Below, piece by piece: positions 13,743 to 30,407 of a stretch of DNA of 34,723 nt (position 1 is the stretch's first letter; each line of letters begins with the position of its first letter). The stretch is from a virus. The notes beneath the pieces are model-generated. The model searched no databases. It saw only the letters and a program-made list of their open reading frames with translations, and was not told the origin of the DNA. The position numbers and the translations under genes were made by a program. The stretch is from the IMG/VR virus record IMGVR_UViG_3300044568_000881, positions 1 through 34,723 of that record; one strand, written 5' to 3'.

Positions 13743-14467
13743 GTGTTGAGCTCCTTTAAATAAAACCATTCTTCTTCAGGGTAAACACGCCCCCCACCAT
13801 CAAGGACTTTACGCAATCGATTTTGGGGTACGCCTAATTCAGTCAGCATTTGATGCGTTGGTTTTTGGTTCCACGCCCCAACAAAATATTCACCGTCTTG
13901 GTCGTATTGGTTTATTTCTCTCGTAAGAACCCAAATAGAATTGGATTGCTCAGACTTGGTAAGCGGATGAAATCGTGAATAAAACATCTCTTCCACCGCA
14001 TCAGACCTGCGATAAACCGCAACGACGTGCGTACCTTCCGGCGTTACATCAACCCCAATACCTACCGGCGATAATTGCTCTTCTTTGGTAAATTCTTTCT
14101 CCGCCAACCATCGACCTTTTGGCGTACAAGGCTTAATGCATTTTTCGTAATCGCCGCAGCACACACATTCTTCAGGCTTGGCTAACTCAATCGCTGCGTT
14201 TTGCATTTGAAATAAACATTTTTTAAGTGTTTCGTTTTCATCATGCAATCGGCGGAGTTCTTTGGCGGCAAACAAGCGATCAGCTTTTGTTGCAACGTTT
14301 AATTCAATAGCATCAGCCACTCGCAATGTTTCTGTTTGCTCAGGCTTGGCTAACTCTTGCTCAAGGGCTGCGATAGCAGGTTGTTTTAAATCAACAGGAT
14401 TACCATCATTGTCACAGCACTCAAGTGTCAACGCATCCAACGCTTGCTGCATAATTTCACGGCTCAT
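13739..14467 (-). CDS. Modular phage protein with cysteine motif, unknown function
   Basis: This protein has 242 aa. The N-terminal part (REIMQQALDALTLECCDNDG, PAIAALEQELAKPEQ) is a module frequent in early regions of environmental phages. A coiled-coil segment follows (about 65-95). A Cys-rich motif (VCCGDYEKCIKPCTPKGRW, about 98-117) could bind zinc. The C-terminal part is globular (VGIGVDVTPEGTHVVAVYRR, YSRFHPLTK, WVLTREINQYDQDGEYFVG). It looks like a fusion of short exchangeable modules. It overlaps both neighbours by 4 bases. Confidence 0.65.
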   Translation of the reverse strand: MSREIMQQALDALTLECCDNDGNPVDLKQPAIAALEQELAKPEQTETLRVADAIELNVATKADRLFAAKELRRLHDENETLKKCLFQMQNAAIELAKPEECVCCGDYEKCIKPCTPKGRWLAEKEFTKEEQLSPVGIGVDVTPEGTHVVAVYRRSDAVEEMFYSRFHPLTKSEQSNSIWVLTREINQYDQDGEYFVGAWNQKPTHQMLTELGVPQNRLRKVLDGGGRVYPEEEWFYLKELNT

Positions 14468-14655
14468 GGTCGCACCGCCTCTTTCAATAGTTCAATACGC
14501 TCACGCGCAACGCGCAGAGAGTTTGCGCGCTGGTGCAAGCGCAACAGCATCTTCACCCGACGCTCATGGGTGCGTTCGTACTCAAGCATAGCCATGATCT
14601 CTTCTTCAGAATATGTAGCCATGTACTCATTTAGTCTTCGCCAAGTGATTAGCAT
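14464..14655 (-). CDS. Small charged helical protein
   Basis: This 63 aa protein has GGAGG at a good distance from ATG. It is almost entirely helical and basic (SEEEIMAMLEYERTHERRVK, MLLRLHQRANSLRVARERIE). Its stop overlaps the next start (ATGA), and its first 29 bases overlap the end of the upstream 53 aa gene. A DNA-binding or assembly-factor role would fit the charge, but the function is unknown. Confidence 0.6.
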   Translation of the reverse strand: MLITWRRLNEYMATYSEEEIMAMLEYERTHERRVKMLLRLHQRANSLRVARERIELLKEAVRP

Positions 14656-14964: not shown

Positions 14965-15154
14965 CAAGTTGTTTCCTTATTTCAGTTAAGTCACGGCGTA
15001 CGTCAAACAATGTGTCGGCGTACCTAATGAGTTCCTCGCGCATCACTCTGTTCGACTCTTGCAGCGCGCGTATGTACTTGGCTGTTTCGTCTTGCTCTTG
15101 AGGGTTCATAACGTACCCATGTTCAAGATAACGTAATGTTTTTTCAGGTGTCAT
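14951..15154 (-). CDS. Small helical protein (67 aa)
   Basis: This 67 aa protein overlaps the upstream stop (ATGA). The first part (PEKTLRYLEHGYVMNPQEQD) is followed by a long helix (ETAKYIRALQESNRVMREEL, RRDLTEIRKQLDERS). It looks like proteins that accompany early operons in other phages. There is no recognisable domain. Confidence 0.6.
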   Translation of the reverse strand: MTPEKTLRYLEHGYVMNPQEQDETAKYIRALQESNRVMREELIRYADTLFDVRRDLTEIRKQLDERS

Positions 15155-15396
15155 GGCTGTAATCCAAAAGGGTTGTGGGCGTGTTTAATAACTAGGTTTT
15201 CAAAATGTTCCACAACCGTAGGCGTAGACACTATGTAAGTGGCGGGCTCGGTATCAACGCGCTTGACTAGCCCTTTCATTTGCAAACGCCCCAAGGCGCT
15301 GTAGATGCTGCTGCGCTGTATCTTGCAATGATCGGAAATTTCTTGCGCCGTATGCGGCTTAGTGCAAAACGCAATTATCTTGTCAGGTGTTCTCAT
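15151..15396 (-). CDS. Winged helix-turn-helix DNA-binding protein
   Basis: The ATG at 15396 follows an AGGGGCGAGAA ribosome region, overlaps the upstream stop, and gives 81 aa. Residues 2-55 form a MarR/TrmB-like winged helix: helix 1 (PDKIIAFC), helix-turn-helix (TAQEISDHCKIQRSSIYSAL), a further helix (GRLQMKGLVKR) and a beta wing (VDTEPATYIVS). It is the only obvious transcription-regulator candidate in the window, so it may control the early promoters at 17338-17408 and 26461-26530. That link is inference. Confidence 0.75.
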   Translation of the reverse strand: MRTPDKIIAFCTKPHTAQEISDHCKIQRSSIYSALGRLQMKGLVKRVDTEPATYIVSTPTVVEHFENLVIKHAHNPFGLQP

Positions 15397-15602
15397 TTCT
15401 CGCCCCTTGCTCTGATTAGTTCGGCAGCATGATGAGCGGTTGCTAAACTCCATTGTTCCTCACACAACTTCGCACACACCTCACGTTCATCAGCGCGCAC
15501 AAGTTCGGCAAAATGTTCAAGTTCACCAAGCCAAGCCCATTTCATTTCGTATTCATACAAATAACCTATACCGGCTTGTTCAGCTAATTCTTTATGTTTC
15601 AT
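15393..15602 (-). CDS. Small conserved phage protein (69 aa)
   Basis: The sequence has a helical opening (MKHKELAEQAGIGYLYEYEM) and a common phage motif (HFAELVRADEREVCAKLCEE) followed by HHAAELIRARG. The latter pair of helices recurs in many small phage proteins and may be a protein-interaction module. AAGGTG lies upstream, and the stop overlaps the wHTH start. Function unknown. Confidence 0.6.
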   Translation of the reverse strand: MKHKELAEQAGIGYLYEYEMKWAWLGELEHFAELVRADEREVCAKLCEEQWSLATAHHAAELIRARGEK

Positions 15603-19712: not shown

Positions 19713-21635
19713 ATGACAATCCTATACCTAGATTTTGAAACGCGCAGCCATTGCGACTTAAAAAAGCATGGCGTGTACAACTACGCGCAAGACGCAACGA
19801 CTGACGTGTTGTGTATGTCCTACGCGTTCGATGACGAAGACATGGTGACGTGGCTACCCACGCAGCCGTTTCCTAAGCGTGTACGCGATCACACCGGCCT
19901 GATCTACGCGCACAACGCAGCCTTTGAGCGGTTAATCTTTTGGTACGTCTTACAAATCAATTTCAAGCTCGAGCAGTTTTATTGCACCGCAACACAAGCG
20001 CGAGCAAATTGTGCGCCTGGTAGCCTTGAGGACGTGGGCCGGTTTGCCGGCGCGTCAATGAAGAAGGATTACCGTGGCGCGCAGCTTATCCGTGCGCTGT
20101 GTGTGCCGCCTTTTAAAGAAGATGCTGCACTAATGACCGAGATGGTGCAATACTGTGAGCAAGACGTGCGCGCCATGCGCGCGGTCAGTCAAAGCCTACG
20201 CCCCCTATCAGACGAAGAGTTGGAGGATTACCATGTCAACGAAAAAATTAACGACAGAGGTGTTTTGGTGGACGTGCCTCTTGCCAGCGCAGCCATCTCT
20301 TACGCGGCCACGGAACTCGAGGATATTCAGTCCATTGTCAGAACCGTCACCAATGGCGCGATCACGTCAGTCCGCTCGCCGAAGATGCGCGAATGGGTTA
20401 AAGAAAGGTTGAGCCCTGAACAACTTAAACTAATGGAAGTGGAAGATGGAAAGTATTCGATCGACAAGCGCGTCCGCGCAAACCTACTCGCGGTCGAAGA
20501 CCTACCGCCCGACGTTGCCGAGGTTATCCAATGTGCCGACGATTTATGGGCGTCGTCGGTTGCGAAGTTCAGCCGCCTTAAAGACTTGGCGGATGTGGAA
20601 GACTCAAGAGTACGAGGCGCTTTTGTATTCGCTGGCGGATCAGCTACAGGGCGAGCTTCGAGCTACGGTGCTCAAGTCCATAACTTCACGCGCAAGTGCG
20701 CCAAAGACCCCGAGTCAGTTAGAGCTAGCATGGTTCTCGGACACCCCATCGTTCCCCAGTTTGGCCGTAGAGTCACAGACGTTCTCAAAGGGATGCTCAG
20801 GCCAGCAATTATCCCGTCCAAAGGTAAGTCCTTGGTTGTAGCCGATTGGGCGCAGATCGAAGCCAGGATGACCCCGTGGTTGTCGGGTCGAGGCGATGAC
20901 GTGCTAGACGTGTTCCGTTCAGGGCGTGACATCTACATACGGGAAGCTGCCGCGATGTACAAGATACCCGAAGACCAAGTCACCCCCGATCAGCGTCAGA
21001 TTGGTAAGGTCGCCATTCTCGCCTGCGGGTTCGGCGGGGGCATTGGCGCGTTTAGCGCGATGGGTCGCGCCTACGGGTTGACCATGACCGAGTCAGACGC
21101 GCAGCGCACGGTGGACGCCTGGCGCCGCGCAAACCAATGGGCCGTCAGGTATTGGCAAGAACTAGAAACTGGCTACATGATCGCCATGAGAAATAAGGGT
21201 AAAGAAATCGTGGCGGGTAGGGTTACCTATATGTTTGATGGGCAACACTTATGGTACGCTTTACCCTCCGGTCGCATTCTCTGCTACCCCTACGCCAAAC
21301 TTGAAGAAGATGGAATCAGCTACGCCAAAGCCGCATGGAAGCCAGCCGTTGACGCCCGTGAATGGCCCCGCGCCCGACTATGGCGTGGTTTGGCCTGTGA
21401 GAACATCACCCAAGCCGCAGCGAACGACGTATTACGCCGATCTTTACGGTTGTGCGACGAAGCAGGTTTACAAGTAATTTTGCATTGCCACGACGAAATT
21501 GTCTTGGAGTGCGATGAAAATAAAATAGAATCTTCAACTGCAACTTTAACTGATATAATGTGTACGTCACCTGAGTGGGCAAATGGTTTGCCTCTAGGCG
21601 TAGAGATTAAGGCAATGGCGAGATATGGTAAATAA
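19713..21635 (+). CDS. polA: Family A DNA polymerase with 3'-5' exonuclease domain
   Basis: This 640 aa protein is of the bacteriophage type, without a 5' nuclease. Exonuclease motifs: D7 and E9 (LDFETRS), HNAAFE (67-72), YCEQDVRA (about 147-154). Polymerase motifs: A, D378 in VVADWAQIEAR; B, R428-K432 in RQIGKVAILACGFGGG; C, HDE at 593-595. At the position of E. coli Phe762 there is Leu436, and at Tyr766 there is Phe440. The start is fixed by the exonuclease motif beginning at residue 7. There is no ribosome site; the structured RNA before it may control translation. The 3' end overlaps the HNH gene by 11 bases. Confidence 0.92.
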   Translation: MTILYLDFETRSHCDLKKHGVYNYAQDATTDVLCMSYAFDDEDMVTWLPTQPFPKRVRDHTGLIYAHNAAFERLIFWYVLQINFKLEQFYCTATQARANCAPGSLEDVGRFAGASMKKDYRGAQLIRALCVPPFKEDAALMTEMVQYCEQDVRAMRAVSQSLRPLSDEELEDYHVNEKINDRGVLVDVPLASAAISYAATELEDIQSIVRTVTNGAITSVRSPKMREWVKERLSPEQLKLMEVEDGKYSIDKRVRANLLAVEDLPPDVAEVIQCADDLWASSVAKFSRLKDLADVEDSRVRGAFVFAGGSATGRASSYGAQVHNFTRKCAKDPESVRASMVLGHPIVPQFGRRVTDVLKGMLRPAIIPSKGKSLVVADWAQIEARMTPWLSGRGDDVLDVFRSGRDIYIREAAAMYKIPEDQVTPDQRQIGKVAILACGFGGGIGAFSAMGRAYGLTMTESDAQRTVDAWRRANQWAVRYWQELETGYMIAMRNKGKEIVAGRVTYMFDGQHLWYALPSGRILCYPYAKLEEDGISYAKAAWKPAVDAREWPRARLWRGLACENITQAAANDVLRRSLRLCDEAGLQVILHCHDEIVLECDENKIESSTATLTDIMCTSPEWANGLPLGVEIKAMARYGK

Positions 21636-22125
21636 TTTGCCCACCCAAGCTAGGCTAAAAGAATTATTTATTTACGACCCCGATAGCGGGGTTTTTACGC
21701 GTCGTATTTCTACAGGGCGGCATAATCGGCACAAAGCGGGTGAAATTGCGGGTACAAAAGGCATTTACTGGCATATGTACGTTGATGGTAAACGCTTTGT
21801 AGGGCATCGTTTGGCATGGGTCTATGTATATGGCAAGCCGCCAAAAGAAGACCTTGACCACATAAACCAAAATAAATTAGATAATCGTATTGCGAATTTG
21901 CGTGAGGCTACACGGCGCCAAAATATGCAAAACGTGACGCTTCACAAACACAATAGTAGTGGGTTTAAAGGCGTGGCGTGGCACAGCCCACGCAAAAAAT
22001 GGCGCGCGTACATTTTTAACGGTTACAAGCAAACGCATTTAGGTCTGTTTGAAACATTAGATCAAGCCGTTCAAGCGAGAAAAGCCGCAGAGTTTGAATA
22101 TCATACGCATCGCTTAACGGCATAA
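21625..22125 (+). CDS. HNH homing-type endonuclease with AP2-like DNA-binding domain
   Basis: This protein has 166 aa. The order is an N-terminal linker (ARLKELFIYDPDSGVFTRR), an HNH core (VGHRLAWVYVYGKPPKEDLD, HINQNKLDNRIANLREATRR), then an AP2-like domain (SSGFKGVAWHSPRKKWRAYI, HLGLFETLDQAVQARKAAEF). Such genes are mobile and often sit next to conserved replication or packaging genes. It starts inside the last 11 bases of polA and is followed by a hairpin. It is a paralogue of the endonuclease at 27599-28090 and probably spread by copying within or between related phages. Confidence 0.88.
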   Translation: MVNNLPTQARLKELFIYDPDSGVFTRRISTGRHNRHKAGEIAGTKGIYWHMYVDGKRFVGHRLAWVYVYGKPPKEDLDHINQNKLDNRIANLREATRRQNMQNVTLHKHNSSGFKGVAWHSPRKKWRAYIFNGYKQTHLGLFETLDQAVQARKAAEFEYHTHRLTA

Positions 22126-22171: not shown

Positions 22172-24484
22172 TTGGACTTTGTCGATTTTATCTCAAAAGT
22201 CGCCCCCGAGGGTGAAACTTGTTTGTTGGTTAAGCAAAAGCCTGTTGGAAAAGAACAACACGCCGATGGCACGATTAAGGCGACATGGCCAGCCTTTTAC
22301 CCGAGCGAGTACAAGGAAGGCGGGGCGTGGTACGCCAACACCGCATCTTTTATCGTCGAACGGTTTAAAAGTAAACCGAGTGCGTCAATTCACAATTGTG
22401 ACCATGTTGCTTTTTTGGTGCTTGATGACGTGGGCACCAAAGCAAAAGCGCCTCCGCTTGAGCCGACGTGGAAGATTGAAACGTCGCCCAATAACTTCCA
22501 ATGGGGTTATACGTTTGCTTTAGACGATCAACCCACGCATCAAGTATTCAGCGCAGCCATCAAAGCGATTGCCGAGGCCGGTTACACCGACGAAGGCGCG
22601 ACTAACGCGGTGCGGAATTTTAGAATACCAGGGAGCGTCAACCTCAAGCCCGAGCGTAACGGGTTCAAGTCGGTGCTAACCGAGTTTCACCCCGCGCGCG
22701 AGTTTAGTCTGCCGCAAATTATGGACGCGTTTGGTGTGGTCGCGGGCGAAGTTGAATCCAACGCATACCGACCGATCAAAGTAGAGGACGATGGCACCGA
22801 TACGATTTTTGCGTGGTTGGCTGAGAATAGCCTTGTTATCTCGCGCCCCAACTCCGAGGGTTGGGCGGGCGTAGTTTGCCCCAATGCACACGAACATACC
22901 GACGGCAACCCTCAAGGGCGTTACAACCCGTCTATGCGCGCCTATTGCTGCCTTCACTCGCATTGCTTGCAACTCGACAGCCACATCTTCCTTGAGTGGG
23001 TCGAGGGCCAAGGCGGTCCAAGCGCAGCACCAGGTCTGCGCGATGAGTTGTTAGCGTCTGTCATGGCTAAAACCTACGCCGTAATTGCGCCTACTCAAGC
23101 ATACCCCGATGATGTCAAACGCCGCCAGCGCGAGATCGAACAGCGCGAGTTGGGTAGGGTTGAAAAAGAAGAATGGTTTGGGCGATTCGCGTATATCCAA
23201 AGCGATGATAGTTATTTTGATATGCAGGATAGGCGCGAAATTTCCCGTGGCACGTTTAACGCGTTGTACAGGCACATTGTGTGCAAGTCAGCGCGTACGG
23301 GGCGCCACATTGAGGCGTCAGTTTGCTTTGATGAGTTACGCCAAAAATGCGGCGCCCCTGCGTTGGTTGGCATTACTTACGCGGCGGGCGAAACTGTTCT
23401 TGTGTCGCGTGGCGGTGACGTCTATGGCAACAGATGGCGCGATGCGCGCCCCGTGGCCATGAAGGGTGACGTTACCCCGTGGCTTGAGCATTGCAAGCGT
23501 TTGGTGCCCGACCCCGAATCGCTTAACCACATATTTGACGTGATGGCGTTTAAATTGCAGCACCCGCAGCGCAAGATCAACCACGCGATTCTGCACACGG
23601 GTGTGCAAGGATCCGGCAAAGATACGATGTATCACCCGTTTATATGGGGTGTTTGTGGTGATAACGCGACTAATCGGGGTTTGTTGGACTCCGACACCAT
23701 GTCGTCGCAGTTTAATTACGCGCTCGAGTCTGAAATACTGATTCTAAATGAATTACGCGAGCCCGACGCCAAGGATCGCCGCGCTTTAGCGAATAGGCTT
23801 AAACCCGTGATTGCTGCGCCCCCCGAGTACCTGTCGATCAATCGTAAAGGATTGCACCCCTACGACATGGCCAACAGACTGCTAGTGCTGGCATTTTCTA
23901 ATGACCCTGTACCTATTACGCTCGACTCGCAAGACCGTCGCTGGTTTGCGATCAAATCGACCGCGCCCCGTATGACTTCAGAGGCAGGCGCGGCCATGTG
24001 GAAGTGGTTTGATCAGGGCGGTGTGAGCGCGTGTGCGGCGTGGCTGTATGCGCGCGATGTAAGCGCGTTTAACCCTGGTGCGGCGCCCCCAATGACCGAA
24101 TTCAAACTAACCTTGGTCGAACAAGGTATGAGCGCCAATGAGTCGTTTTTGGCCGATATGATCCGCGAGCGCAAAGGCTTGTTTGCTAATGGTGTTATTG
24201 CGTCGCCCTTTCATGCGATCTGTGACACGCTATCGATCAACGCTCCGGGCACCTATAAGGTGTCGCAGGGCGCGCTTTTACACGCTTTGCAAGAGTGCCA
24301 ATGGGTAGACTGTGGGCGCGTGTCGTCGCGTGAGTACACATCTAAAAAACAGATTTACTGCGCGCCCGATATGCTCGAGCATAGCAAGAGCGATTTGCGC
24401 GCGATGGCCGAGGGCGTAGTCATACGCGCGGGTTCACCTATGGCCGCTGTCACACACTTGAAGAGCGTAAAAAAACCCGCGTAA
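22172..24484 (+). CDS. Primase-helicase fusion (AEP-like primase, SF3-like helicase)
   Basis: This 770 aa protein starts at TTG 22172 with AAGGAG 8 bases upstream. The N-terminal half resembles archaeo-eukaryotic/RepB-type primases: acidic pair D85-D86 in FLVLDDVGTK and the motif FRIPGSVNLKP (about 155). A Cys/His-rich stretch lies at about 250-280 (CPNAHEH ... CCLHSHC). The C-terminal half is a D5/SF3-like helicase with Walker A GVQGSGKDT (K483), ILILNELREPD as Walker B-like motif, and FSNDPVPI as sensor region. It should both prime and open DNA at the origin. Its stop codon lies in the loop of a terminator hairpin for the opposite operon. Confidence 0.85.
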   Translation: MDFVDFISKVAPEGETCLLVKQKPVGKEQHADGTIKATWPAFYPSEYKEGGAWYANTASFIVERFKSKPSASIHNCDHVAFLVLDDVGTKAKAPPLEPTWKIETSPNNFQWGYTFALDDQPTHQVFSAAIKAIAEAGYTDEGATNAVRNFRIPGSVNLKPERNGFKSVLTEFHPAREFSLPQIMDAFGVVAGEVESNAYRPIKVEDDGTDTIFAWLAENSLVISRPNSEGWAGVVCPNAHEHTDGNPQGRYNPSMRAYCCLHSHCLQLDSHIFLEWVEGQGGPSAAPGLRDELLASVMAKTYAVIAPTQAYPDDVKRRQREIEQRELGRVEKEEWFGRFAYIQSDDSYFDMQDRREISRGTFNALYRHIVCKSARTGRHIEASVCFDELRQKCGAPALVGITYAAGETVLVSRGGDVYGNRWRDARPVAMKGDVTPWLEHCKRLVPDPESLNHIFDVMAFKLQHPQRKINHAILHTGVQGSGKDTMYHPFIWGVCGDNATNRGLLDSDTMSSQFNYALESEILILNELREPDAKDRRALANRLKPVIAAPPEYLSINRKGLHPYDMANRLLVLAFSNDPVPITLDSQDRRWFAIKSTAPRMTSEAGAAMWKWFDQGGVSACAAWLYARDVSAFNPGAAPPMTEFKLTLVEQGMSANESFLADMIRERKGLFANGVIASPFHAICDTLSINAPGTYKVSQGALLHALQECQWVDCGRVSSREYTSKKQIYCAPDMLEHSKSDLRAMAEGVVIRAGSPMAAVTHLKSVKKPA

Positions 24485-26460: not shown

Positions 26461-26530
26461 GAGATTCTATTGTACACGATTTTCTAGCAGTGTACATAAA
26501 TTTCTAGCAAAATGCTCACAAATGCTCACA
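26461..26530 (-). promoter_or_regulatory. Early promoter with tandem operator-like repeats
   Basis: The minus strand at 26483-26461 carries the same 23-nt element as 17361-17383, with TACAAT (26474-26469) as the -10. Upstream of it on that strand lie two 20-bp tandem units (26471-26490 and 26491-26510; TGTACA, four variable bases, TTTCTAGCA) and two perfect 10-bp units AATGCTCACA (26511-26520 and 26521-26530). GTCGGTCA occurs twice further out (26536, 26557; 21 bp apart). The 10/20/21-bp periods put repeats on one helix face, as expected for regulator sites. Confidence 0.65.
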
Positions 26531-26822
26531 ATTTTGTCGGTCATGTGGGTTATTTGGTCGGTCAGCAAAAACAACAAAAAAGCTGACGGGAAATGCTTAT
26601 AAATCAGTCTGTTGAATGACTTGTAGTATTAGATAGTCATTTAGAAGATATATATTTAAAATCTGTAAAATATTAAGTATTACTTTAGAGCATGAAAATG
26701 TCGGAGCGTTGACGCACACGCTGAAGAGCCCGATGCAATTTTTTCTGCATGGCTACATGACCTACATGACCTACAAAATAGCCCAGGTGTGCTGGCTTTT
26801 CGGCTAAATTATCTTTAGGAAG
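26531..26822. other. Non-coding stretch with AT-rich segment
   Basis: I see no gene here. 26636-26694 is strongly AT-rich and contains TATATATTTAAAA-like sequence, which could be a DNA-unwinding element next to the iteron array. Small hairpins lie at 26705-26722 (AGCGT/ACGCT) and 26733-26750 (ATGCA/TGCAT). The 16-base repeat CCTACATGACCTACAA starts at 26761. Confidence 0.5.
26761..26776 (+). repeat. 16-base direct repeat, copy 1
   Basis: CCTACATGACCTACAA is identical to 27125-27140, 364 bases further on. The CTACATGAC unit is also duplicated in tandem just before it (26753-26761). The two copies bracket the iteron array and the G-rich run. Confidence 0.7.
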
Positions 26823-27005
26823 CTAAGACTTAGTGAGTATTGATGGTTAAGACTTAGTGAGCCTGTAAACCCTAAGACTTAGTGAGTGGCTAAGACTTAG
26901 TGAGTATTTGTCCTAAGACTTAGTGAGCCACTCACTAACTCTTAGCCACCTAATCCTAAGACTTAGTGAGCTTGTTGGTTGTCCAACAACCTAAGACTTA
27001 GTGAG
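26823..27005 (+). repeat. Iteron array: seven direct and one inverted 15-mer
   Basis: CTAAGACTTAGTGAG occurs at 26823, 26872, 26890, 26913, 26956 and 26991, with a TTAAG variant at 26847. An inverted copy with one mismatch lies at 26931-26945. Start-to-start spacing is 18-35 bases. Each unit contains CTAAG-A-CTTAG, an 11-base dyad suited to a dimeric protein, plus an asymmetric GTGAG tail. A perfect 7-bp hairpin (26972-26989) lies between the last two. Together with the AT-rich stretch upstream it resembles an iteron origin of replication. A packaging (pac) or partition site are alternatives because the terminase gene follows. Confidence 0.85.
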
Positions 27006-27036
27006 CCAACGGCCTTGTGGCATTAAGCATTTTTGA

Positions 27037-27058
27037 GGGCATGGGGGTAGGGGGGGGG
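27037..27058 (+). other. G-run cluster before the terminase gene
   Basis: Runs of 3, 5 and 9 guanines (27037-27039, 27043-27047, 27050-27058) lie on the plus strand. They could form a G-quadruplex or a rigid G-tract at the packaging start. The palindrome CTAGCTAG follows at 27077-27084. Assembly errors in the 9-base run are possible. Confidence 0.45.
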
Positions 27059-27112
27059 AGGACCCTGCGAGGAGCCCTAGCTAGCGGAGGTTATGCCAAC
27101 AAAATTTTTTTA

Positions 27113-27118
27113 TATAAT
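27113..27118 (+). promoter_or_regulatory. Perfect -10 box before the terminase gene
   Basis: TATAAT lies 11 bases before the ATG at 27130, in a T/A-rich stretch. The -35 region (TTATGC at 27091-27096) is poor. RNA starting about 7 bases after the box would have a leader of about 5 bases and no Shine-Dalgarno sequence, so translation would be near-leaderless. A longer transcript from farther upstream is the alternative. Confidence 0.5.
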
Positions 27119-27124
27119 AAATTG

Positions 27125-27140
27125 CCTACATGACCTACAA
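27125..27140 (+). repeat. 16-base direct repeat, copy 2, over the terS start codon
   Basis: CCTACATGACCTACAA is identical to 26761-26776. The ATG at 27130-27132 inside it is the start codon of the small terminase gene. A small terminase binding its own gene start would fit a pac or autoregulatory site, but this is not shown. Confidence 0.65.
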
Positions 27141-27651
27141 TCGCAAAATGCTATCTCTACACTTCACACCCCGCGAAGTCCGCGCTACCGAGTCGCGTTT
27201 GTTGCGCGTCTATGAGGCCGCGCGTCTAGGGTTGTCAAACGATGCGTTGGCGTTGAAGGCCGGCATGATGCCTGAAGAGTTTCGCAAGCTCTGCCAGCTA
27301 GACCCTGTGGTCGAATTAGCCGCCATGCAAGGCCGTGCGGATTCAGAGTCCGAGATGTCGCAAGTTGTGCGTGACGCGGCGTTAGCGGGCGACGCTAAGA
27401 TGGCGTTGGAGTTCTTAAAACACAAACACGATTGGGTGGCCAAACAACAAGTGCAGGTGGACGTGACGCAACAGATCAGCATCATCACCGCGCTTGAACA
27501 AGCCAACCAAAGAGTAGTAAATGGGCTTACAATTGACGAAGCCGATTACCGCGACAACGGTAACCGGCCTCTTATCAACAACCGTGAAAAGGACGGCGAT
27601 GACTACCAAGATATTAACTCAAGACCGGCTCAAAGAGTTACTTCAGTATGA
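27130..27651 (+). CDS. terS: Small terminase subunit
   Basis: This 173 aa protein recognises phage DNA and starts packaging together with the large subunit. A helix-turn-helix-like N-terminal region (about 25-60: VYEAARLGLSNDALALKAGM, MPEEFRKLCQLDP) fits the DNA-binding domain of small terminases, and a helical oligomerisation core follows (about 60-130). The C-terminal tail is disordered and overlaps the HNH gene by 53 bases. A start at the second Met (27148) is possible. No ribosome site is present. The position directly before terL (with an inserted HNH) and next to the iteron region supports the call. Confidence 0.75.
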   Translation: MTYNRKMLSLHFTPREVRATESRLLRVYEAARLGLSNDALALKAGMMPEEFRKLCQLDPVVELAAMQGRADSESEMSQVVRDAALAGDAKMALEFLKHKHDWVAKQQVQVDVTQQISIITALEQANQRVVNGLTIDEADYRDNGNRPLINNREKDGDDYQDINSRPAQRVTSV

Positions 27652-28090
27652 CGCCGACACAGGCGTTTTTGTCTACAAAATAAAACGCCAACGTTGCAAA
27701 GTGGGCGCCGTGGCGGGTACACGCGACAACCGCAACTATTTAAATTGCAGCATTGACGGCAAGCTATACAAACTTCATAGGCTAGCGTGGTTGTATGTTT
27801 ACGGCCATTGGCCTAACGATCAAATAGACCACATAGATCACAACCCTAGCAATAACGCTATTGCCAATTTGCGTGATGTTTCTTGCGCTCAAAATCAACA
27901 AAACCGCGCGCATAAAACTAAAAGTGCTTCAGGACACCTTGGTGTAACATGGAACAAACGAGATAGGCGCTGGCAAGCGTACATAGAGTTAAAAGGAAAA
28001 AGTATCCATATTGGAAATTACACCGACGTAGACGTTGCCATAACCGCCCGAAGACAAGCGGAATTAAAATACCACTTAGATAGGCCTTAA
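27599..28090 (+). CDS. HNH homing-type endonuclease between the terminase genes
   Basis: The ATG at 27599 has AAGGA 6 bases upstream and gives 163 aa; the longer frame runs through terS. The order is the same as in its paralogue at 21625-22125: DRLKELLQYDADTGVFVYKI, HNH core LHRLAWLYVYGHWPNDQID, HIDHNPSNNAIANLRD, and AP2-like SASGHLGVTWNKRDRRWQAY, IHIGNYTDVDVAITARRQAE. The pair share roughly 40-50% identity by eye. HNH genes near terminases can be mobile passengers, and in some phages HNH nucleases help the terminase cut. It overlaps terS by 53 bases, as expected from an insertion that extended a 3' end. Confidence 0.88.
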   Translation: MTTKILTQDRLKELLQYDADTGVFVYKIKRQRCKVGAVAGTRDNRNYLNCSIDGKLYKLHRLAWLYVYGHWPNDQIDHIDHNPSNNAIANLRDVSCAQNQQNRAHKTKSASGHLGVTWNKRDRRWQAYIELKGKSIHIGNYTDVDVAITARRQAELKYHLDRP

Positions 28091-28092
28091 CT

Positions 28093-29613
28093 ATGCAAAC
28101 CGCCATTTACAGCGCTTCTGATGAAATGGCTCTAATGAGCAAACTTTGGTCGCCTCGTATTGCTAACGACCCTTTGGCTTTTGTATTGTTAACATTCCCT
28201 TGGGGTCAGAAAGGCACACCCTTAGAAAACTTCACCGGCCCACGCCGGTGGCAGCGCGAAGTGCTGTCAGACTTGACCGCACACATTAAGCAAAACAACG
28301 GCAAGATTGACTTTGACACCTTTAGGATGGCGACGTCATCCGGTCGCGGTATTGGAAAGTCTGCCCTAGTGTCATGGCTCACCTTATGGATGCTCTCCAC
28401 ACGCATTGGTTCAACAACCATTATCTCGGCCAACAGCGAATCCCAACTCCGATCGGTCACCTGGGCAGAGATTACCAAGTGGTTGGCGATGTCACTTAAC
28501 TCACATTGGTTTGAGGTCAGCGCCACACGGCTCATGCCCGCCAAGTGGATCACCGAGTTGGTTGAGCGTGATCTAAAGAAAGGCACACGCTATTGGTCGG
28601 TCGAGGGCAGGTTGTGGTCAAGCGAGAACCCTGATGCGTACGCAGGGGTTCACAACTACGACGGTGTGATGGTGATCTTTGACGAGGCCTCCGGTATTGA
28701 CGACGCCATTTGGGCGGTGACTGCTGGCTTCTTTACCGAGAACACACCTAACCGCTTTTGGTTGGCGTTTTCTAACCCTAGGCGCAACACCGGTTACTTT
28801 TACGAATGCCACAACTCCAAGCGTGATTTTTGGAACACTAAGATTGTGGATGCAAGAACGGTCGAGGGTACGGACAAGGCGGTGTATCAGCAGATCATCG
28901 ACGAATATGGCGCCGATTCATCACAAGCTGCGGTTGAGGTTTACGGTGACTTCCCATCAGCGGGTGATGATCAGTTCATATCATCATCAATTGTTGACGA
29001 AGCCATGCGTCGGCCACGGCTCAAAGACCTGTCCGCCCCCATTATTGTGGGCGTTGATCCTGCACGGTTCGGTTCTGACTCGACCGTGATCGCCATACGC
29101 CAAGGGCGTGACATTATTGGCATCAAACGCTTTAAGGGCGACGATACGATGACCGTTGTCGGCCATGTAATCGAAACAATCGAAGAATATAAGCCCGCGC
29201 TGGTCGTAATTGACGAAGGTGGCGTGGGCGGGGGCGTTGTGGATCGTCTAAAAGAGCAGCGATACAAGATTAGGGGGGTCAATTTTGGAAATAAATCAAA
29301 AAATCCGCTCATGTATGGTAATTTAAGGGCTCAGATGTGGGGTGATATGCGTCAATGGCTCAAAACTGCATCGATTCCTAGTGACAGAGTGCTTAAAACT
29401 GATTTAATATCACCAGTAATGAAGCCGGATTCTAAGGGTACGATTTTTTTAGAGTCTAAGAAAGATATGAAGGCGAGGGGGCTGGCTTCTCCTGACGCAG
29501 CAGATGCTATATGCGTGACGTTCGCATTCCCCGTCGCGCACCGAGAGTACGCAGAACCAAAGCGCCGTAGTCAATCAACTAATAGTTTACAAACTTCTTG
29601 GATGGGAGCTTGA
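28093..29613 (+). CDS. terL: Large terminase subunit
   Basis: This 506 aa protein is the packaging motor and nuclease. ATPase motifs: Walker A TSSGRGIGKS with K89, Walker B VMVIFDEAS with D197-E198. RNase H-like nuclease acids: D322 (VGVDPARFGSD), D374 (LVVIDEGG) and D468 or D471 (SPDAADA). The ATG directly follows the HNH stop. The codon mix changes to AT-rich over about 29270-29480 inside the nuclease domain, which may mark a recombination join. It works with the small terminase (27130) and the portal (30404). Confidence 0.93.
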   Translation: MQTAIYSASDEMALMSKLWSPRIANDPLAFVLLTFPWGQKGTPLENFTGPRRWQREVLSDLTAHIKQNNGKIDFDTFRMATSSGRGIGKSALVSWLTLWMLSTRIGSTTIISANSESQLRSVTWAEITKWLAMSLNSHWFEVSATRLMPAKWITELVERDLKKGTRYWSVEGRLWSSENPDAYAGVHNYDGVMVIFDEASGIDDAIWAVTAGFFTENTPNRFWLAFSNPRRNTGYFYECHNSKRDFWNTKIVDARTVEGTDKAVYQQIIDEYGADSSQAAVEVYGDFPSAGDDQFISSSIVDEAMRRPRLKDLSAPIIVGVDPARFGSDSTVIAIRQGRDIIGIKRFKGDDTMTVVGHVIETIEEYKPALVVIDEGGVGGGVVDRLKEQRYKIRGVNFGNKSKNPLMYGNLRAQMWGDMRQWLKTASIPSDRVLKTDLISPVMKPDSKGTIFLESKKDMKARGLASPDAADAICVTFAFPVAHREYAEPKRRSQSTNSLQTSWMGA

Positions 29614-30016: not shown

Positions 30017-30165
30017 TGGCTAAGACCGGACTCTACGCAAACATCCACGCCAAACAAGAACGCATCAAGGCGGGGTCGGGCGAGAAGATGCGTAAGCCTG
30101 GGGCGGCTGGTGCGCCAACTGCTAAAGATTTCAAACAATCAGCCAAAACTGCAAAGAAGAAATGA
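30016..30165 (+). CDS. Very small conserved basic phage protein (49 aa)
   Basis: The 49 aa frame starts in a TAATG overlap and ends at TGA 30163-30165, overlapping the next ATG. The sequence (MAKTGLYANIHAKQERIKAG, SGEKMRKPG-A-GAPT, K-rich tail) matches a tiny protein that I remember as widespread next to portal genes in environmental phages. The high Lys content suggests DNA or acidic-protein binding. Function unknown. Confidence 0.75.
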   Translation: MAKTGLYANIHAKQERIKAGSGEKMRKPGAAGAPTAKDFKQSAKTAKKK

Positions 30166-30407
30166 TCAGACCATTAAACGACAACATTGCGGTACGCCCT
30201 GACCCGTTTGTGCAAAGCGGGCTGATTATTATGCCCGAGGAAGACACCCGCACAGGCGTGGTCGTAGCAGTCGGGCGAGGCAAGAAAGACTCTAAACGGC
30301 CCTTAATGGTCGCCGTAGGTGATCATGTCATGTACAGCGGTACAATTGACCGCAAGTATGAAGACTTGATCCTGATGAAGGATAAGGACGTAATCGGACT
30401 TGTATGA
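30162..30407 (+). CDS. GroES-like co-chaperonin
   Basis: This 81 aa protein is shorter than bacterial GroES (about 97 aa). The cpn10 layout is visible: start RPLNDNIAVRPD, short mobile loop at SGLIIMPEE-TRTGVV, core VVAVGRGKKD, AVGDHVMYSG, and end KYEDLILMKDKDVIGLV. It would cap the host GroEL and may help fold the coat or other phage proteins; P22 coat is a known GroEL client. Its location inside the head-gene operon, overlapping both neighbours, supports a role in capsid assembly. Confidence 0.85.
   Translation: MIRPLNDNIAVRPDPFVQSGLIIMPEEDTRTGVVVAVGRGKKDSKRPLMVAVGDHVMYSGTIDRKYEDLILMKDKDVIGLV

Follow-up and report, generated by a model that had tools for sequence, protein, structure and literature searches.

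The array of 15-bp repeats that precedes the small terminase gene in this DNA looks like a swappable accessory module of a freshwater phage, and not like a packaging signal or the replication start site itself. It lies in an intergenic region (26500-27150) between the divergent starts of two operons in the 34,723-nucleotide stretch analyzed here, which is called the window throughout. On balance, this region is probably an origin read by an initiator resembling P4 alpha and the NrS-1 primase-polymerase-helicase, with the 15-mers acting as a clade-specific accessory binding array. The reading builds on the conservation of the 15-mer, the exchangeability of the array, the co-variation of a second set of repeats with the initiator and the domain architecture of that protein.

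The 15-mer, CTAAGACTTAGTGAG, is present between 26823 and 27005 in six exact copies and two copies with one mismatch. The exact copies are all on the plus strand (copy 1, 26823-26837; copy 3, 26872-26886; copy 4, 26890-26904; copy 5, 26913-26927; copy 7, 26956-26970; copy 8, 26991-27005), as is copy 2 (26847-26861), which has one mismatch and begins TTAAG. Copy 6 (26931-26945) is inverted, lies on the minus strand and reads CTAAGAGTTAGTGAG, with its single mismatch at position 7. When up to three mismatches were allowed, the window contained 10 matches to the 15-mer vs. 0.37 expected, and none of 100 shuffled sequences reached 10. The array reported in an earlier note on this DNA, which was made from the letters alone, is thus real, and two details of its description need amendment. 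The CTAAG-A-CTTAG dyad assigned to every copy is complete in six of the eight copies and disrupted in two, and the spacing of 18 to 35 bases applies to the start-to-start steps with the inverted copy counted (24, 25, 18, 23, 18, 25, and 35), but one step from direct copy to direct copy is 43. Outside the array, no further copy was found in the 34.7-kb record, and none at another phage promoter. No RNA family or terminator was found, the IMG/VR record of 34,723 bases has no terminal repeats, and no phage paper mentioning CTAAGACTTAG turned up in a literature search.

Viral contigs were searched for two exact 15-mers no more than 30 bases apart. This pattern was matched by 45 other viral contigs and had no match in 11.3 million bacterial and archaeal contigs. 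Although the search used the DNA pattern alone, a gene of the same terS family adjoins the array in all 45; the L104 locus ends just before terS, which is visible in L249 of the same contig. The TerS proteins of these contigs, many of the relatives being contig fragments, are 58% to 98% identical to that of the window. The 126 distinct contexts of the 15-mer comprise 114 exact copies and 12 with a single mismatch, and 11 of the 12 mismatches fall at position 7. The exact 15 bases also persist in lineages whose flanks can no longer be aligned. Because the mismatches are nearly all at one position and the flanks of the contexts are only 32% alike, the 15-mer is, on these comparisons, a selected site of exactly 15 bases, behavior that agrees with its earlier description as a protein-binding site. 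There are between 0 and 9 copies, whose order and orientation shift between near relatives, and in L114, L129, and L131 the entire array is reversed relative to terS. The last copy is located ~125-320 bases from terS. As a separate observation, the 92.9-kb contig IMGVR_UViG_3300042472_000301 (L196-L200, L126, L243) joins a complete-looking phage of this group, ~37.5 kb long, to an unrelated phage and is probably a chimeric assembly.

Array-less relatives came from a TerS-based scan, a search that is neutral with respect to the array. Nine distinct clade-mates have 0 copies (L204, L207, L209, L211, L212/L285, L216, L234/L295, L238, and L240/L296). Their TerS proteins are 90-98% identical to that of the window, with residues 1-118 fully identical in L204, L207, and L209; TerL is kept at 94-97% and the primase-helicase, where the contig covers it, at 75-87%. 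These phages retain the G-rich block that follows the array and, in most cases, the flanking 9-mers described below, and the slot that the array fills in the window is occupied by other short repeats, among them the families CACCRCTCGGC, a CTCGACAG tandem, and TGCAGTGCAGCA. In L255-L263 (TerS 76%), the slot mostly contains seven or eight CTAAG-N5-CTTAG dyads instead. One complete array-less contig, G258 (37,015 bases), has every ORF common to seven array-bearing clade genomes, and no left-flank gene or TerS residue separated array-bearing from array-less phages after correction for multiple testing. In G002/G004, which have the late genes in common with the window, there is another replication module and there are no 15-mers and no 9-mers. 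Since the 15-mer is absent from clade-mates that share TerS, TerL, and the primase-helicase with the window, this comparison of genomes shows the array to be exchangeable; it is not required as a TerS target or as an iteron.

Such turnover could also occur in a neutral, recombination-prone spacer, where short repeats expand and are swapped and the 15-mer has no function. The spread of copy numbers, the varying order and orientation between near relatives, and the other repeat families in the same slot are all in line with that explanation. We nevertheless regard it as unlikely, since neutral decay would hit all positions of the 15-mer and not position 7 in 11 of 12 cases, and since the 15 bases persist exactly despite the unalignable flanks.

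The distribution of one further gene was recorded in the same genomes. A GroES-like co-chaperonin gene (30162-30407 in the window) is present in the array-bearing relatives with data, except L131. Among array-less relatives from the first scan, L016/L017 and the L009/L010/L013 type have it and the others do not; this gene may mark a host group.

The terminase genes follow the array on the plus strand. The small terminase gene, terS (27148-27651), for which a start at 27148 is likelier than one at 27130, encodes a protein with a helix-turn-helix (HTH) and a helical hairpin, and the large terminase gene, terL, lies at 28093-29613. Fold searches with TerS gave weak results, with Sf6 gp1 and phBC6A51 among the matches and all E values above 0.4. 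Were the array a pac or cosB-like site, TerS would bind the 15-mers and pass the DNA to TerL; this would suit the HTH in TerS, the position of terS beside the array in every array contig, and the joint loss of the array and this TerS type in G002/G004. We consider this function very improbable. In L204, L207, and L209, the TerS region identical to that of the window is found without any 15-mer, no residue of the TerS body splits array-bearing from array-less phages, the TerS proteins of array-bearing G037 and G046 group with array-less ones in the TerS tree, which was built by a quick method, and the orientation of the array to terS is not fixed, as its reversal in three loci shows. The earlier note, which had raised a packaging site as one possibility, had also named relatives with the same replication and packaging genes and no array as evidence against its proposal, and the array-less clade-mates are such relatives. 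The shared TerS sequence, the lack of separating residues, and the TerS tree also led to the rejection of TerS as the 15-mer reader, and on this sequence evidence TerS is excluded as a necessary partner of the 15-mer. The pac interpretation of the 15-mer is thereby largely refuted. In headful phages, binding of TerS to pac is often weak and hard to demonstrate (PMC9611059), so a missing fixed sequence is not enough to exclude packaging here, and packaging from the G-rich block or from a site inside terS is possible.

Two side observations concern the terminase region. In G002 (L172 9765-10361), an Sf6-like TerS encoded on the other strand replaces the window-type TerS while the late genes are 85-97% identical, a clear module exchange; the C-terminal tail (TQISI..ALEQA) is the only TerS part common to the window and G002 and is probably a TerL contact. 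The window also contains two similar (homing) endonuclease genes of the HNH type; one follows the DNA polymerase gene (21625-22125), the other lies between terS and terL (27521-28090), and both are absent from many close relatives.

Several candidates for the protein that reads the 15-mer were tried. A dedicated phage gene was rejected because no gene of the left operon and no HTH gene follows the presence of the array, and array-less G258 lacks no such gene. The two small proteins suggested previously fared no better: several genomes with the array lack the wHTH protein (15151-15453), and array-bearing and array-less genomes alike encode the 63-aa protein (14464-14655). Genes of the ParA/ParB type, which would go with a centromere or partition site, were not recognized by eye among the translated ORFs of the window. 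None of 201 genomes from the presumed host family has the exact 15-mer; this family is that of a Rhodoferax MAG holding a relative and rests on MAG contigs. Together with the lack of a paired match in genome contigs, this count led to the rejection of a host regulon carrying the 15-mer; it gives no sign of such a regulon, yet it is compatible with a host protein that binds the 15-mer. These data also bear on the idea of an operator array, in which a phage or host regulator binds the 15-mers and switches the divergent operons. Although the location between those operons, the asymmetric dyad in the 15-mer, and the distance of the last copy from terS would be appropriate for an operator, the 15-mer is found at no other phage promoter, no left-operon or HTH gene tracks it, and the 201 host-family genomes have no exact copy, making an operator array a rather improbable explanation. 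Within the clade of the window, the 15-mer is constant while the 9-mer words change with the initiator, and the wing of the initiator is therefore not the 15-mer reader. Most likely, the reader is encoded by the host or is a conserved phage protein able to work without these sites as well.

The 9-mers are tandem repeats of the type ATNRCCNAC that are confined to three places in the window, which all lie within 26536-27138. The left pair (ATGACCGAC, ATAACCCAC; 26536-26553) is on the minus strand and forms the inverted iteron set, the right pair (ATGACCTAC ATGACCTAC; 26757-26774) is on the plus strand, and the third pair (ATTGCCTAC ATGACCTAC; 27121-27138, plus strand) is located directly 3' of a TATAAT sequence at the start of terS. 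The pairs flank both the array and an AT-rich stretch (26636-26694; 20% G+C), which sits between inverted and direct 9-mers and is a candidate unwinding element. This arrangement between divergent operons bears out the earlier description of the place as origin-like. A GC-skew switch at the array, which the earlier note proposed to look for, is not seen; cumulative GC skew has no turn there. Between 15-mer copies 7 and 8 lies a dyad, GTTGTCCAACAAC (26978-26990), that is present also in relatives without the 15-mer. The G-rich block (27043-27090, plus strand) is family-wide and is also found in TerL relatives whose TerS and replication module are of another kind. The TATAAT (27113-27118, plus strand) is a candidate -10 element of the terS/late promoter, for which a scan found no consensus -35. 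Relatives have the same 9-mer layout with other words (ATTGTCCAC, ATGACCCAA, ATAGCCAAC, ACTGCCGAA, and ATGACTCAC) and up to about 10 copies, and where the word differs, it has changed in all copies of a relative together. Two other elements were noted in this region. Before the minus-strand operon, the window has an operator-like direct repeat, TGTACA..A.TTTCTAGCA, in two copies 20 bases apart (26471-26509), and L011 holds a similar pair. A LexA-box-like sequence (ACTGTATATACATACAGT) is found in the AT-rich stretch of many relatives (for example L039, L093, L126, L204, and L209, about -400 to -470 upstream of terS) and is absent from the window.

With the AT-rich stretch and the 9-mers adjoining, and with an iteron-like copy number, dyad, and spacing, the 15-mers might themselves serve the phage initiator as its main origin iterons. 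This, too, is very improbable. The initiator is kept in clade-mates without the array, at the 75-87% identity given above, a distribution that also argues against the iteron reading of the earlier note; in the clade of the window, the 9-mer words vary with the initiator and the 15-mer is constant, implying different readers; and the steps of 18-35 bases show no helical phasing. The 9-mers, and not the 15-mers, are accordingly the iterons in the origin that we favor.

The putative initiator is the primase-helicase (770 aa; 22172-24484, plus strand), which has an N-terminal RepB-primase-like part, a DUF5906 SF3-type core, and a C-terminal winged helix. The core matched PF19263 (DUF5906) at 49.1 bits against a cut-off of 27.6, and a profile match was obtained to NrS-1 (PDB 6k9c; E = 7e-14); fold matches were to NrS-1 and SaPI PriRep1. 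The primase part reached 21.5 bits with RepB_primase, under the cut-off of 24.3, and matched DNA primase families in PHROGs. In the AlphaFold2 model, the winged helix comprises helices at residues 655-665, 680-690, and 699-708 and wing strands at 712-717 and 726-730, with a pLDDT of about 79-88 for the block. The statement that the window encodes no initiator of a known family is thus mistaken, since the primase-helicase, with its SF3/DUF5906 core followed by a C-terminal winged helix, is like the P4-alpha, NrS-1, and SaPI initiators.

Codons 714-736 of this gene (24311-24379, plus strand), encoding the wing and the residues that follow, co-vary with the 9-mer word. Two independent clades each include ATTGTCCAC phages and ATGACCCAA phages, and in both clades ATTGTCCAC is found with K718, R720, and D723, and ATGACCCAA with A718, G/S720, and Q/P723. 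Thirteen primase positions split ATTGTCCAC from ATGACCCAA in both clades, seven of them within residues 714-736, and no TerS position does so. Among loci fetched later, K718 and D723 were present with both of the two new GTCC words and in 0 of 16 other combinations. Over all distinct combinations, the association of GTCC with K718 and D723 has P = 3e-6, a value to be read with the rows not all phylogenetically independent and the counts uncorrected for phylogeny. Of three recorded exceptions, one (L049) has ATTGTCCAC in two copies, and the other two (L052 and L057) contain TTGTCCACA copies overlooked by the tandem filter. When all 9-mer words were entered in a partial Mantel test, the wing did not stand out, the top windows being primase 261-297 and TerS 43-58. 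TerS was rejected as the 9-mer reader, given that L065 and L033 share TerS residues 1-70 yet differ in their 9-mers. Collectively, assignment of the primase-helicase winged helix as the 9-mer reader is well supported, though not proven. The 9-mer word of L073, L082, and L039, TTGTCCACA, is identical to the actinobacterial DnaA box, a likeness that is probably a coincidence of a variable word. A phage DnaA-like protein was rejected as its reader, a DnaA_C domain scoring above the cut-off only in MW202483. That genome, MW202483.1, has a stand-alone DnaA domain IV (L134 3892-4188; PF08299, 64 bits) and, in front of terS, an array of GTTTACATAAAC dyads (L134 6700-7500).

In the favored model, the intergenic region 26500-27150 would be at once a replication origin and the promoter region for the terS operon. 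The C-terminal winged helix of the primase-helicase would bind the 9-mer pairs flanking the AT-rich stretch, as the co-variation suggests, and by analogy with the family the SF3 helicase would open that stretch and the primase domain would prime. The 15-mer array fills the variable slot between the putative 9-mer iterons and the conserved G-rich block, as it does in most phages of this clade, each 15-mer being the presumed binding site of a sequence-specific protein, for which selection on the site argues. Sibling phages retain the other elements and have different short repeats in the slot, and the array would probably tune initiation or transcription at the origin. A more far-reaching version, which we advance tentatively, is a host-adapting origin slot in which unrelated families of selected sites alternate, the 15-mer is the best conserved of these families, and its reader is probably host-encoded. 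In this version, wing and 9-mer word would co-evolve as a specificity code that can be read for a viral initiator. The paired changes of iteron word and wing residues, seen in dozens of uncultured phages, offer a direct and cheap test of how such an initiator chooses its origin. The 15-mer array is a strongly selected DNA site that is dispensable with identical packaging and the same replication genes, and it cautions that a position before terS alone does not make repeats a pac site.

The proposed system resembles several known ones in part. In P4, the winged helix of alpha binds origin repeats (PMC4234260), and the likeness lies in the union of primase, helicase, and a winged helix for short origin repeats in a single protein. 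The primase is of the Toprim type in P4, in contrast to the RepB-primase-like part here. The origin repeats of P4 also differ from those here, where the iterons would be 9-bp tandem pairs with an extra 15-mer array beside them. The NrS-1 primase-polymerase-helicase (PDB 6k9c, 6k9e, and 6lrb) is the best match in sequence and fold, for the helicase and the C-terminal part; overall similarity is low (15-19% identity), and the comparison covers the protein. In SaPI Rep and SCCmec Cch2, the C-terminal domain acts on iterons (PMC7581432), and SaPI Rep/PriRep1 and Cch2 (PDB 7ola and 7pds) are similar in this use of a C-terminal domain on short origin repeats and in the helicase fold. Their origin is directly downstream of the helicase gene, whereas here it would be about 2 kb away, before terS. 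The pac and cosB sites of SPP1, P22, and lambda share with the array a location before or inside terS and several sites for a DNA-binding subunit, the pac of P22 being a 22-bp sequence inside terS (PMC9611059), but the 15-mer array is missing from phages with identical TerS (residues 1-118). Iteron plasmids (RSF1010 RepC and others; reviewed in PMC4980987) likewise have repeats by an AT-rich unwinding element and an initiator encoded by the replicon. The phage region differs from these in the fusion of helicase, primase, and DNA-binding domain in one protein and in its second, exchangeable array of a different word.
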